Assembly: GCA_021815655.1 (NCBI GenBank)
Contig: JAKAGJ010000177.1
Coordinates: 1 to 5,778, forward strand
Direction of reading: 5' to 3'
From: Deltaproteobacteria bacterium
Lineage (GTDB): Bacteria; Desulfobacterota; Desulfarculia; Desulfarculales; Desulfarculaceae
Length of the DNA: 5,778 nt
Shown: positions 1 through 5,778 of the stretch, piece after piece
How the letters are laid out: each line of letters begins with the position of its first letter
Position numbering within the stretch: the first letter of the stretch is position 1
The notes under the pieces: model-generated
The model's input: the letters and a program-made list of their open reading frames with translations, nothing else
What the model was told of the DNA's origin: nothing
Databases searched by the model: none
Position numbers and translations under genes: made by a program

Positions 1-362
1 CCCTCTTGAGCGAAAACTCGCGCATTCCCGTGGACGATCCCACCACCCACCTGGAACTGACCATGATCCACGAGGTCATGGTGCTGGATCACGGCGGCCC
101 CGACCTGGGGATGATCCTCTACGGGGCCTCCATAAAACTCTGGATCATGTGCGCCCTGCTGGCGGGAATACTGGTGCCGGTGCGCACCGGCAACCCCTGG
201 CTGGACGCGGGGGCCGTCATCGGCGGAATTTTCCTGCTGGCGGTGGCCATCGGAGTGATCGAGTCCTCCCTGGCCCGGCTGCGGCTCCTGCGGGTTTCGC
301 AATTCTTGACCGGCGCCGGGGTCTTGGTCGTCGTGGCCCTCCTGCTGGATTTTTGGGTGTGA
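1..362 (+). CDS. HyfC/HycD/NuoH-like membrane subunit, C-terminal part (5' end outside window)
   Basis: This is the C-terminal ~119 residues of a membrane subunit of the NuoH/HycD/HyfC family, which anchors the hydrophilic arm of complex I and group 4 hydrogenases and couples electron transfer to ion pumping. The frame is open to the left edge, so the TTG at position 6 is not the true start. It opens with the family's conserved cytoplasmic loop, ENSRIPVDDPTTHLELTMIH, which in this family faces the electron-transfer arm. About three hydrophobic segments follow. A conserved acidic/basic stretch, VIESSLARLRLLRVSQF, precedes the last helix. The stop (360-362) lies one base before the next ATG, so translation is probably coupled. 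The loop is much closer to HycD/HyfC than to NuoH of NADH dehydrogenase. I am confident of the family; the exact subtype rests on the neighbours. Confidence 0.93.
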   Translation, partial: LLSENSRIPVDDPTTHLELTMIHEVMVLDHGGPDLGMILYGASIKLWIMCALLAGILVPVRTGNPWLDAGAVIGGIFLLAVAIGVIESSLARLRLLRVSQFLTGAGVLVVVALLLDFWV

Positions 363-2587: not shown

Positions 2588-4114
2588 ATGGCCACGCCAG
2601 CTTCCAGACATCCTGGCCTTTCCAACGGCCAGGCCGTGGATATCCAAAGCCTGCCGATCATGGCCACGGCCGGTTTTCTCGAGAGCGTGGCCCAGGCCGT
2701 GGCCCAGGGCATGCGGGTTTCGGCCTTCTTCGCCCAGCCCCTGGACCAGGGTCGCCTGCGCCTGTGGGCCATACTGGCCCAGGACAGCCAGTCCCTCCTG
2801 TTCCCTTATTGCACCGACCTGGAGGATGCGCACTACCCGGCCTTGACGCCCCGCTGCCCGCAAATGCATTTGTTCGAAAGAGAGGTCTGCGAACAATGGG
2901 GCGTCGAGCCGCGGGGGCACCCCTGGCTCAAACCGGTTCGCTTTCACGCCCCCTATCGCCAGGGCCAGGCCAACGCCGGGTCAGGTAGCGGCAACCAGGT
3001 GGGGGTGACGGACTACTTTAGGGTCGAAGGCGAGGAAGTCCACGAGGTGGCGGTGGGGCCGGTGCACGCCGGCATTATCGAGCCGGGGCACTTCCGGTTT
3101 CAGTGCCATGGGGAGGAGGTGCTGCACCTGGAGATTTCGCTGGGGTACCAGCATCGCGGCGTGGAGCGCCACCTGGCCGCGGGGCCGGATAGGCGCTCCC
3201 TGCACCTGGCGGAAACCCTGTGCGGCGACACCAGCATCGGTCATGCCACGGCCTACTGCCAGGCCCTGGAAGCGCTGGCCGGCGATCAGGCGTCAGCCCG
3301 CGCCCAGATGCTGCGGGGGGTGGCCCTGGAGCTGGAGCGCATAGCCAACCATGTCGGCGACCTGGGCGCCCTGGCCGGCGACGTGGGGTTTCTGCCCGTG
3401 CTCTCCTTTTGCGGCCGCATCCGGGGTGATGTCCTTAACATGACCGGCCTGCTCTGCGGCAACCGGTTCGGCCGCCGCATGGTCCGTCCCGGTGGCGTGG
3501 GCTACGACCTCGATTCGGCCGTGGCCGCTGAGTTGCAGAAGCGCCTGGATATCCTGGAAAAGGACTTGACCGTCGCCCTGGACCTCCTATGGGGCACTTC
3601 CTCGGTGATGGCGCGTTTCGAGGGGACCGGCGCCATCAGCGGGCAGACCTGCAAGGCCCTGGGGCTGGTGGGGCCGGCGGCGCGGGCCTGCGGGGTCGAG
3701 AGGGACATCCGTTGGGACATGCCCGCCGGCATTTTCCAATTCGCGCAAATCCCGGTTTCCACCTGGGGCTCGGGTGATGTCCATGCCAGGGCTCGGGTGC
3801 GCTGGCTGGAGACCTTCAGGTCCATTGCCTTTCTCAGGGAGCAGTTGGCCAACCTGCCAGCCGGCGAGATAAGAACGCCCCTGGGTCCGCTGGCCCCCAA
3901 CCACCTGGCGGTGGCCTTGGTGGAAGGTTGGCGGGGGGAGATTTGCCACGTGGTCACCACCGACGCCAAGGGCAATTTCTCCAGCTACAAGGTGGTGGAC
4001 CCCTCCTTCCACAACTGGTTTGGGCTGGCCCAGGCCCTGCGGAACCAGCAGATATCCGATTTCCCGCTGTGCAACAAGAGCTTCAACCTGTCTTACTGCG
4101 GCCACGATCTGTGA
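2588..4114 (+). CDS. Ehr-type large subunit: NuoC-NuoD-like fusion related to HycE/HyfG, lacking most Ni-Fe ligands
   Basis: A 508-residue soluble subunit with two domains. Residues ~1-125 are NuoC-like, with the family signature around 85-120 (ALTPRCPQ, FEREVCEQWGVEPRGHP). Residues ~140-508 are the NuoD/hydrogenase large-subunit fold, with HAGIIEPGHFRF (160-171), LGYQHRGVE (185-193), ELERIANHVGDLG (248-260) and GNRFGRRMVRPGGV (291-304). In active enzymes L1 is CGxC and the C-terminal motif is DPCxxC. Here L1 reads LCGDTSIGHA, with C212 kept and the second Cys replaced by T215. The C-terminus reads SFNLSYCGHDL, with S502 and G505 at the two Cys positions. The protein then ends, without a cleavable tail. 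Ni-Fe binding is therefore unlikely, which matches the energy-converting hydrogenase-related (Ehr) group. E. coli HycE is longer (569 residues). The start has AAGGAAA at 2573-2579, 8 nt before the ATG. The catalytic role is unknown. Confidence 0.93.
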   Translation: MATPASRHPGLSNGQAVDIQSLPIMATAGFLESVAQAVAQGMRVSAFFAQPLDQGRLRLWAILAQDSQSLLFPYCTDLEDAHYPALTPRCPQMHLFEREVCEQWGVEPRGHPWLKPVRFHAPYRQGQANAGSGSGNQVGVTDYFRVEGEEVHEVAVGPVHAGIIEPGHFRFQCHGEEVLHLEISLGYQHRGVERHLAAGPDRRSLHLAETLCGDTSIGHATAYCQALEALAGDQASARAQMLRGVALELERIANHVGDLGALAGDVGFLPVLSFCGRIRGDVLNMTGLLCGNRFGRRMVRPGGVGYDLDSAVAAELQKRLDILEKDLTVALDLLWGTSSVMARFEGTGAISGQTCKALGLVGPAARACGVERDIRWDMPAGIFQFAQIPVSTWGSGDVHARARVRWLETFRSIAFLREQLANLPAGEIRTPLGPLAPNHLAVALVEGWRGEICHVVTTDAKGNFSSYKVVDPSFHNWFGLAQALRNQQISDFPLCNKSFNLSYCGHDL

Positions 4115-4183: not shown

Positions 4184-4957
4184 ATGCTAGATATCATCCT
4201 GGCCAGAATGCAGCAGAAGCACCGCACCATGAAGTTCCCCTATGGCCCCGCGCCCCAGATGCCACCGCGCTATCTGGGCCGACCGGCGGTCATGCCGGGC
4301 GACTGCCCCTCCGGATGCAATATTTGCAGGGAGGTCTGCCCCACCGGGGCGCTGGGACGCCAAGGCCGTCTTGGCCTGGACATGGGACGGTGCATATTTT
4401 GCGGGGAATGCGCGCCGGTTTGCCCGGCGCAACGCCTGCGCTTCACCCAGGACCACCGGCTGGCCACGGGCAGCCGGGCCGACCTGTTGGTGGATTCCGA
4501 GGTCATCCGGCCGGCCTCGCCCCTTGACGCCCAGCGCAAGCGTCTTTTCGGGCGCTCGCTCAACCTGCGCCAGGTGAGCGCCGGCGGCTGCAACGCCTGC
4601 GAGGCCGACACCAACGTCCTGGGCACCATTGGCTGGGACCTGGGCCGGTTCGGCATACATTTCGCGGCCTCCCCCCGCCACGCCGACGGCCTCTTGGTGA
4701 CCGGACCGGTGCCGGCAAACATGCGCCTGGGATTACTGAAGACCTATGAGGCCTTGCCCACGCCCAAGCTGGTCATTGTGGTGGGCGCGTGCGCCATTTC
4801 AGGAGGACCTTTTGCCGGGCACGAGGAAGTGGCCGACGGGGCCGGCGACCTGTTGCCGGTGGACCTTTACGTCCCAGGGTGCCCGCCCCATCCCTTGACC
4901 ATACTGGATGGCCTGTTGCGGCTCTTGGGCAGATTGCCCGAGCCCGGCAAGGATTAA
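4184..4957 (+). CDS. Fused 2[4Fe-4S] ferredoxin (HyfH/NuoI-like) and small subunit (HyfI/NuoB-like)
   Basis: A 257-residue protein joining two electron-transfer subunits that are separate genes (hyfH, hyfI) in E. coli. Residues ~1-95 form a two-cluster ferredoxin. Cysteines 41, 45, 48 and 52 are in DCPSGCNICREVCP, with an unusual CxxxC first spacing; cysteines 70, 73, 76 and 80 are in CIFCGECAPVCP. Residues ~120-257 are the NuoB/small-subunit domain. Its proximal-cluster ligands are C136 and C139 (GGCNACEAD), C203 (VGACAISGG) and C233 (VPGCPPHPLT). The spaced CxxC is hydrogenase-type, unlike the tandem Cys-Cys of NuoB in complex I. All twelve expected ligands are present, so an intact electron wire toward the large subunit is likely. 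GGGAAGG at 4167-4173 lies 10 nt before the ATG. It is the last gene of the operon; a 69-nt spacer separates it from the large subunit. Confidence 0.93.
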   Translation: MLDIILARMQQKHRTMKFPYGPAPQMPPRYLGRPAVMPGDCPSGCNICREVCPTGALGRQGRLGLDMGRCIFCGECAPVCPAQRLRFTQDHRLATGSRADLLVDSEVIRPASPLDAQRKRLFGRSLNLRQVSAGGCNACEADTNVLGTIGWDLGRFGIHFAASPRHADGLLVTGPVPANMRLGLLKTYEALPTPKLVIVVGACAISGGPFAGHEEVADGAGDLLPVDLYVPGCPPHPLTILDGLLRLLGRLPEPGKD

Positions 4958-5370: not shown

Positions 5371-5778
5371 ATGAAGGAACTCTCCCAGTGCAGCGTGCTG
5401 GTGGTGGACGACACCGAGGCCAACGTGGACATCCTGGTGGAGGCCTTGGGCGACACCTATGACCTATCGGTGGCCATAGACGGCGAGTCGGCCCTGGAGG
5501 CGGTGGCCGAGAATCCGCCCGACCTCATCCTGCTGGACATCATGATGCCGGGCATCGACGGCTACGAGGTTTGCCGCCGGCTCAAGAAAGACCCCTCCCG
5601 CGCCAAGATACCCGTGATCTTCCTCACGGCCATGACCGAGATCGAAAACAAGACCAAGGGCTTTCAACTGGGGGCCGTGGACTACGTCACCAAGCCCTTC
5701 GAGATCATGGAAGTACAGGCCCGGGTCAAGACCCACCTCTCGCTGATGCTGGCCGGCCGCGAACTGGAGCGGCAGAAC
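5371..5778 (+). CDS. Response regulator with N-terminal receiver domain (3' end outside window)
   Basis: The frame from ATG 5371 is open to the window end (136 codons visible). Residues ~7-125 are a complete CheY-like receiver: acidic pair D13/D14 in VLVVDDTEANVDILVE, phosphoacceptor D56 in LILLDIMMPGIDGYEVCRRL, switch threonine T86 in VIFLTAM, and catalytic K108 in DYVTKPF. It is therefore probably phosphorylated on D56 by a histidine kinase not seen here. After the receiver, AGRELERQN looks like the start of a coiled-coil linker, as in regulators that go on to kinase, cyclase, GGDEF or HD-GYP outputs; which one cannot be told. The start is constrained because an in-frame stop lies at 5359-5361 and no other start codon intervenes. 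AGGAAGG (5351-5357) is a distant ribosome site and GAGG (5364-5367) a very close one, so initiation may be modest. Confidence 0.93.
   Translation, partial: MKELSQCSVLVVDDTEANVDILVEALGDTYDLSVAIDGESALEAVAENPPDLILLDIMMPGIDGYEVCRRLKKDPSRAKIPVIFLTAMTEIENKTKGFQLGAVDYVTKPFEIMEVQARVKTHLSLMLAGRELERQN

Follow-up and report, generated by a model that had tools for sequence, protein, structure and literature searches.

Comparison of the encoded proteins identifies the window, a whole contig of 5778 bp (C178), as a locus of the Ehr (Ech-hydrogenase-related) complex, a known family, with EhrL as its large subunit. Across the sampled family, EhrL has lost four of four Ni–Fe ligands, and its pocket, as judged by aligned residues, fits neither a hydrogenase, nor the archaeal MBS, nor complex I. 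New here are an invariant hydrogenase proton relay, the replacement of the canopy Asp by Asn, 12 kept cysteines in the small subunit EhrS, and the absence of the quinone-site His and Tyr of complex I. This pattern of kept and lost residues narrows the reaction that Ehr may perform and makes it testable. We tentatively favor reading Ehr as an ion pump powered by ferredoxin, with a protonatable compound, probably menaquinone, as its electron acceptor and without hydrogen production.

Passages in three reports (PMC6349859, PMC10284858, PMC12342949) describe Ehr as having subunits like those of complex I and Ech, as lacking the NiFe ligands, and as being of unknown function; one of these passages places it in about half of Nitrospirales genomes (PMC12342949). 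The Geobacter sulfurreducens complex (GSU0739–0745) is described in part of PMC7894505 as having a large subunit without NiFe ligands together with NuoL-like, HyfE-like, and small subunits. The original prediction had assigned the window protein to Ehr, and this identity holds: the ligand loss and the subunit set (antiporter-like, NuoH-like, HyfE-like, and NuoB-like) fit the published descriptions, and the EhrL proteins of the Geobacter-group isolates Geomobilimonas luticola (L069) and Geobacter sp. AOG1 (L071) are 59–60% identical. These were the sole Geobacter-group loci compared, with GSU0739–0745 matched by description. The D. ruminis "EhrL", according to a passage in PMC3569383, keeps four Cys, unlike the EhrL discussed below. 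The warning that automatic annotation would mislead was also justified, as close relatives are labeled "Ni,Fe-hydrogenase III large subunit" or "NADH-quinone oxidoreductase subunit C"; labels such as the former would lead to false predictions of H2 metabolism from environmental genomes.

Sampling and Alignment

The window comes from a draft genome (G000) that is 71% complete in 641 contigs. From a protein search with 8000 scored candidates we kept the best 120, and from a genome scan with 442 confirmed loci the best 80. The resulting 199 EhrL rows comprise 119 proteins, 79 loci, and the window; they are partly redundant, are 55–81% identical to the window protein, and represent the nearer part of the Ehr family. 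Two of the 81 locus rows were left out: L061, whose C-terminus is shifted, and L086, which is the genome's own NuoD. Correspondence between EhrL and Escherichia coli HycE was established by phmmer and by MAFFT with HycE, HyfG, NuoCD, and relatives, and the two methods agree. Around the first ligand loop, MAFFT offset the E. coli NuoCD row by about six columns; complex I positions there were taken from the phmmer alignment. The latter ends at residue 503, so the assignment of G505 rests on MAFFT and the ungapped end.

For position 212, a tree of 112 rows was built with column 212 removed, using 70 loci, the 12 Cys rows, every fourth other protein, and three outgroups. Eleven locus rows with partial, over-long, or odd frames were excluded, and 44 of the 108 inner branches are unsupported. 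A single AlphaFold prediction gave a mean pLDDT of 83.8, with values below 50 at the pocket loops (155–167 and 494–508), and we claim no distances from it.

Table 1. Features of the window and of contig C333 from the same genome, with counts over the 199 EhrL rows where residues are listed
Feature	Position	Strand	Comment
HyfC/NuoH-like membrane anchor, C-terminal 119 aa, start off contig	3..362	+	PF00146 E 6e-5, 22.9 bits, under cut-off of 27; homologues at same place in relatives
HyfE/NuoK-like membrane subunit, 214 aa	364..1008	+	PF00420 barely above cut-off; NF008556 (hydrogenase 4 membrane subunit model) 99.7 bits, cut-off of 136 not reached
HyfF-like antiporter subunit, 506 aa	1014..2534	+	PF00361 E 3e-46; conserved E137, K225, K304
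EhrL, 508 aa	2588..4114	+	NuoC-like N-terminal domain and [NiFe]-hydrogenase/NuoD-like large subunit without the Ni–Fe ligand set
E165, equivalent of the β1–β2 loop proton donor (HycE E193)	3080..3082	+	199/199; role as given in a passage of PMC9474812
C212, first ligand position (HycE C241)	3221..3223	+	Ala 159, Ser 28, Cys 12 of 199
T215, second ligand position (HycE C244)	3230..3232	+	Thr 179, Ser 16, Ala 3, Met 1; Cys 0/199
H255, proton-path His (HycE H284)	3350..3352	+	199/199
R366, proton-path Arg (HycE R395)	3683..3685	+	199/199
E408, proton-path Glu (HycE E437)	3809..3811	+	199/199
R449, canopy Arg (HycE R478)	3932..3934	+	199/199
N500, at canopy Asp position (HycE D529)	4085..4087	+	Asn 195, Asp 3, Ser 1 of 199
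S502, third ligand position (HycE C531)	4091..4093	+	Ser 199/199
C504, near-invariant Cys specific to the family, flanked by the two lost C-terminal ligand positions	4097..4099	+	197/199; Ser in HycE
G505, fourth ligand position (HycE C534)	4100..4102	+	Gly 199/199
EhrS, 257 aa	4184..4957	+	two-cluster ferredoxin domain fused to NuoB/HycG-like domain; PF01058, Fer4
Response regulator receiver domain, runs off contig	5371..5778	+	PF00072
HTH-EIIA gene, window's genome	L122 (G000:C333) 2754-3461		67% identical to L005 copy (L005:1642-2346)
HyfB-like gene start, runs off contig	L122 (G000:C333) 3753-4094		291 bp downstream of HTH-EIIA

Loss of the Ni–Fe Ligands

The original prediction mapped the four ligand positions to C212, T215, S502, and G505, and both alignments to HycE reproduce this mapping. 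The two CxxC motifs that supply the four Cys of group 4 [NiFe] hydrogenases, among them E. coli formate hydrogenlyase (Hyc) and hydrogenase 4 (Hyf), are absent from EhrL, and no alignment with HycE, HyfG, NuoCD, and relatives placed Cys at all four positions in any of the 199 rows. The proposed loss of three of four ligand Cys is thus correct for the window protein but too small for the sampled family, which lacks all four. Likewise, C212 is kept as a letter but not by descent. On the 112-row tree, the distribution of Cys in column 212 requires at least five changes, with Cys arising inside Ala-bearing clades, and the row nearest to the window (P0002) has Ala. Because the position is mostly Ala and Cys is nested within Ala clades, C212 is a secondary cysteine, and we rejected its interpretation as a retained ligand or half-site.

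Large subunits of group 4 [NiFe] hydrogenases carry a C-terminal tail that is removed on maturation. HycE and HyfG have 35 residues beyond the position equivalent to 505; all 199 EhrL rows have three, as in NuoCD, and there is therefore nothing for a maturation protease to cut off. HypD was not found in the window's own genome, which is 71% complete, and is present in 23 of the 27 other Ehr genomes. Its presence alone therefore says little, hydrogenase maturation usually being at hand. The suggestion that EhrL reflects divergence and not decay is upheld, since the frame is open, every one of the 199 rows shows the loss, and cluster and pump residues are retained in the partner subunits.

A Retained Proton Relay and an Altered Canopy

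The proton-path residues of HycE are named in a passage of the E. coli FHL structure paper (PMC9474812), according to which the relay Glu takes the position occupied in complex I by the quinone-protonating His. Their equivalents E165, H255, R366, and E408 are invariant in EhrL, as is the canopy Arg (R449). Other positions differ: the canopy Ser of HycE is replaced by Asn (N254) and the second acidic loop residue, D192, by Ile, each in all 199 rows, and Asn occupies the canopy Asp position. The same source describes this Asp (D529) as strictly conserved and reports that its replacement impairs quinone reduction in complex I.

The quinone-site residues of complex I are also missing. In the phmmer alignment, Nqo4 H38 and Y87 correspond to I164 and G213, both invariant in the 199 rows, whereas the genome's own NuoD (L086) has the HPSTHG and MDY motifs. 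The retained relay, the missing maturation tail, and the upstream gene described below go beyond the original prediction.

The Electron Wire and the Pump

EhrS fuses the ferredoxin and NuoB-like parts that are separate in Hyc and Hyf. Eight cysteines of its ferredoxin domain (C41, C45, C48, C52, C70, C73, C76, and C80) account for two clusters, and C136, C139, C203, and C233 form a proximal cluster site of the hydrogenase type, with a CxxC motif and spacing as in HycG. Each of the 12 is kept in 73–75 of 75 loci, and the proximal CxxC with its two other Cys in 74–75 of 75. The tandem Cys of complex I cluster N2 is not found; EhrS has CxxC in its place. The first ferredoxin motif (C41–C52, window 4304-4339) has the unusual form CxxxCxxCxxxC, with one residue more than its counterpart in HycF (CxxCxxCxxxC).

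The two antiporter-like subunits have Glu and Lys residues that are fully or nearly invariant. Among the loci aligned at each position, the HyfF-like subunit has E137 in 70 of 71 and K225 and K304 in 73 of 73, and the HyfB-like subunit (numbered as in the L009 copy) has E141 in 70 of 70 and K222, K299, and K350 in 73 of 73. We take these Glu and Lys residues to be pump residues.

An Upstream HTH-EIIA Gene

A gene encoding an HTH_17 DNA-binding domain and a PTS_EIIA_2 domain precedes the HyfB-like gene, as seen in two relatives' copies and in the copy from the window's genome that were scanned. By tblastn it lies upstream in 52 of the 56 loci with at least 6.3 kb of upstream sequence and is missing in L013, L064, L076, and L081. 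Its carriers include records titled Deltaproteobacteria, Planctomycetes, Lentisphaerae, Acidobacteria, Spirochaetes, and Geobacter, among others. The gap to the HyfB-like gene has a median of 5 bp and is at most 150 bp in 48 of 52 ORF-picked loci, a set slightly different from the tblastn 52 and including some negative values from over-long ORF starts. Matches occur in 55 loci, and in all 50 aligned copies of 180–300 aa both H136, within an IAIPH motif, and H183 are present. We take the IAIPH histidine to have the role that it has in EIIA proteins. Four of five PDB matches are PtsN or nitrogen-regulatory IIA proteins; the upstream protein resembles PtsN/EIIA-Ntr in its PTS_EIIA_2 domain and invariant IAIPH histidine but adds the N-terminal HTH_17 domain and heads the Ehr operon. 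In the window's genome, the gene and the start of the HyfB-like gene sit on another contig (C333), whose linkage to the window contig we infer, the two being unjoined. A Mutator-family transposase (L122 529-1437) and an EamA transporter (L122 1481-2407) are encoded upstream of it there.

PTS enzyme I was found in 27 of 28 Ehr genomes, the one miss being the incomplete G000, as compared with 7 of 14 control genomes. Part of PMC13104625 states that EIIA-Ntr regulates K+ homeostasis, and a title cited there reports inhibition of a K+/H+ antiporter; by analogy, EIIA-Ntr control of the antiporter-bearing Ehr complex is plausible. No published link between EIIA and Ehr appeared by title or abstract in the literature searched, which mostly lay outside subscription journals. 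If confirmed, the regulator would tie the Ehr ion pump to the PEP state of the cell.

A Proposed Function for Ehr

A ferredoxin domain, a relay leading to an emptied pocket, and a conserved pump are read most economically as the ferredoxin-driven pump that reduces a protonatable acceptor. Electrons would enter through the ferredoxin domain of EhrS, the donor being suggested by the domain alone, and would reach the proximal cluster beside the emptied EhrL pocket. A small substrate may be reduced there with protons from E165, acting in place of the complex I histidine, and the resulting movement would drive the HyfB/HyfF-like subunits. The upstream DNA-binding EIIA-Ntr protein might switch the operon with the PEP-dependent phosphorelay.

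Menaquinone is a first guess for the acceptor. MqnC, MenD, or UbiE/MenG scored above its curated cut-off in 22 of the 28 Ehr genomes (10, 5, and 21 of 28, respectively). EhrL was the only PF00346 protein found in four genomes (G001, G004, G008, and G016), and three of the four have a quinone marker. UbiA-family proteins, which also serve other pathways, occur in all 28, and MqnA/D family members in 14, the G004 match among these being weaker and the G022 match poor. None of MqnC, MenD, and UbiE/MenG exceeded its cut-off in six genomes (G004, G010, G015, G021, G022, and G025), of which five carry rpoB over its cut-off; a strong NuoD-family match is nevertheless present in three of them (G015, G021, and G025). 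Three explanations offer themselves: the markers overlook a pathway, genes are missing from the assemblies, or Ehr uses another acceptor. The six genomes count against menaquinone. According to part of PMC6349859, Ehr-bearing Riflemargulisbacteria have no full quinone pathway. The aligned residues also count against menaquinone, in that equivalents of H38 and Y87 are absent and 195 of 199 rows have Asn for the canopy Asp.

Other reactions have to be weighed against this proposal. We consider it unlikely that Ehr joins a formate dehydrogenase in a formate-oxidizing ion pump, an idea put forward in a passage of PMC6349859 on the ground that fdhA accompanies NuoE/F-like genes in the Riflemargulisbacteria and Saganbacteria that carry Ehr. 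The Ehr subunits of G. sulfurreducens are reported in part of PMC7894505 to be more abundant on formate, a response that leaves a link of Ehr to formate, even to H2, conceivable. However, the EhrS ferredoxin domain needs no co-encoded partner, and just one of the 80 loci (L017) had FdhF-, NuoE-, NuoF-, or NuoG-like genes in its fetched flanks, a search confined to flanks in loci of 4.6–17.6 kb whose E. coli queries may miss distant forms. This count, which also sets Ehr apart from respiratory complex I, favors a diffusible donor, and a co-encoded dehydrogenase partner was rejected. That EhrL continues to work as a hydrogenase on a diminished ligand set is scarcely credible: C212 is present in the window protein, the fold and relay are hydrogenase-like, and H2 production from formate is suggested as one reading of the Geobacter proteome (a passage of PMC7894505), but the 199 rows hold no Cys at three of the four ligand positions and hold it at 212 in 12, and the maturation tail is gone. 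Expression of Ehr in N. moscoviensis did not rise with H2, as reported in part of PMC12342949.

Reduction of sulfane sulfur at the proximal cluster, as by Pyrococcus MBS, is improbable, although MBS is a complex I superfamily relative of known reaction that has likewise lost NiFe ligands (two of four, as against all four in the Ehr family) and has no equivalents of Nqo4 H38 and Y87 (passages of PMC7684303), and record titles of several relatives name sediments or groundwater. MBS catalysis is stated there to require that three Cys on a shortened motif hold the proximal cluster and that the pocket be aprotic and lack the relay Glu, whereas Ehr keeps the full four-Cys cluster and an invariant E165. 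We regard it as equally improbable that Ehr is an ion transporter that senses, or is gated by, redox state and whose pocket has no dedicated terminal acceptor. The wire and pump residues are kept while the known catalytic ligands are lost, and one EIIA-Ntr elsewhere binds a K+/H+ antiporter (part of PMC13104625); against this, an invariant relay into the pocket suggests proton-coupled chemistry there. More improbable still is a different metal site built from C504, D214 (199/199), H219 (198/199), and H506 (192/199), which lie in both former Ni–Fe loops. Against it, otherwise intact proteins have Ser at 504 (L023 and L056) and Phe or Tyr at 506 (seven rows), HycE also has the equivalent of H219, and the low-pLDDT pocket loops of the predicted model give no geometry.

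The ferredoxin-driven, acceptor-reducing pump can be taken one step further. Ehr could represent a fourth engine of the complex I superfamily, in which a metal-free, proton-coupled reductase pocket (E165, R449, N500, and C504), derived from an emptied hydrogenase site, is driven by ferredoxin; a dedicated DNA-binding EIIA-Ntr sensor of the PEP phosphorelay, the product of the upstream gene, would throttle the pump by acting on the operon and also directly on the antiporter subunits; we regard this fuller version as doubtful. The fixed and lost hydrogenase parts turn the question of Ehr function into one for point mutations and assays. If Ehr does reduce a quinone or another protonatable acceptor without a metal, this would bear on the origin of the complex I quinone site from a hydrogenase.

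Variation in Locus Organization

Every gene in the window is on the forward strand. Where at least 900 bp is available downstream of EhrL, tblastn places the EhrS gene there in 75 of 75 loci, mostly across a gap of about 150 bp or less. The two genes are adjacent in the window and 2.8–3.6 kb apart in both Geobacter-group isolates; the intervening sequence in L071 encodes DUF4145 and DUF2007 proteins, an alpha/beta hydrolase, and an acetoacetate decarboxylase-like protein. The response regulator gene starts about 410 bp past EhrS. It looks unrelated to the Ehr operon because the 14 other tabulated loci give just one match, which is weak and on the opposite strand of L054. An extra or enlarged antiporter-like frame lies upstream of the operon in L023, L025, L027, L045, and L046, and the number of pump modules seems to vary among relatives.
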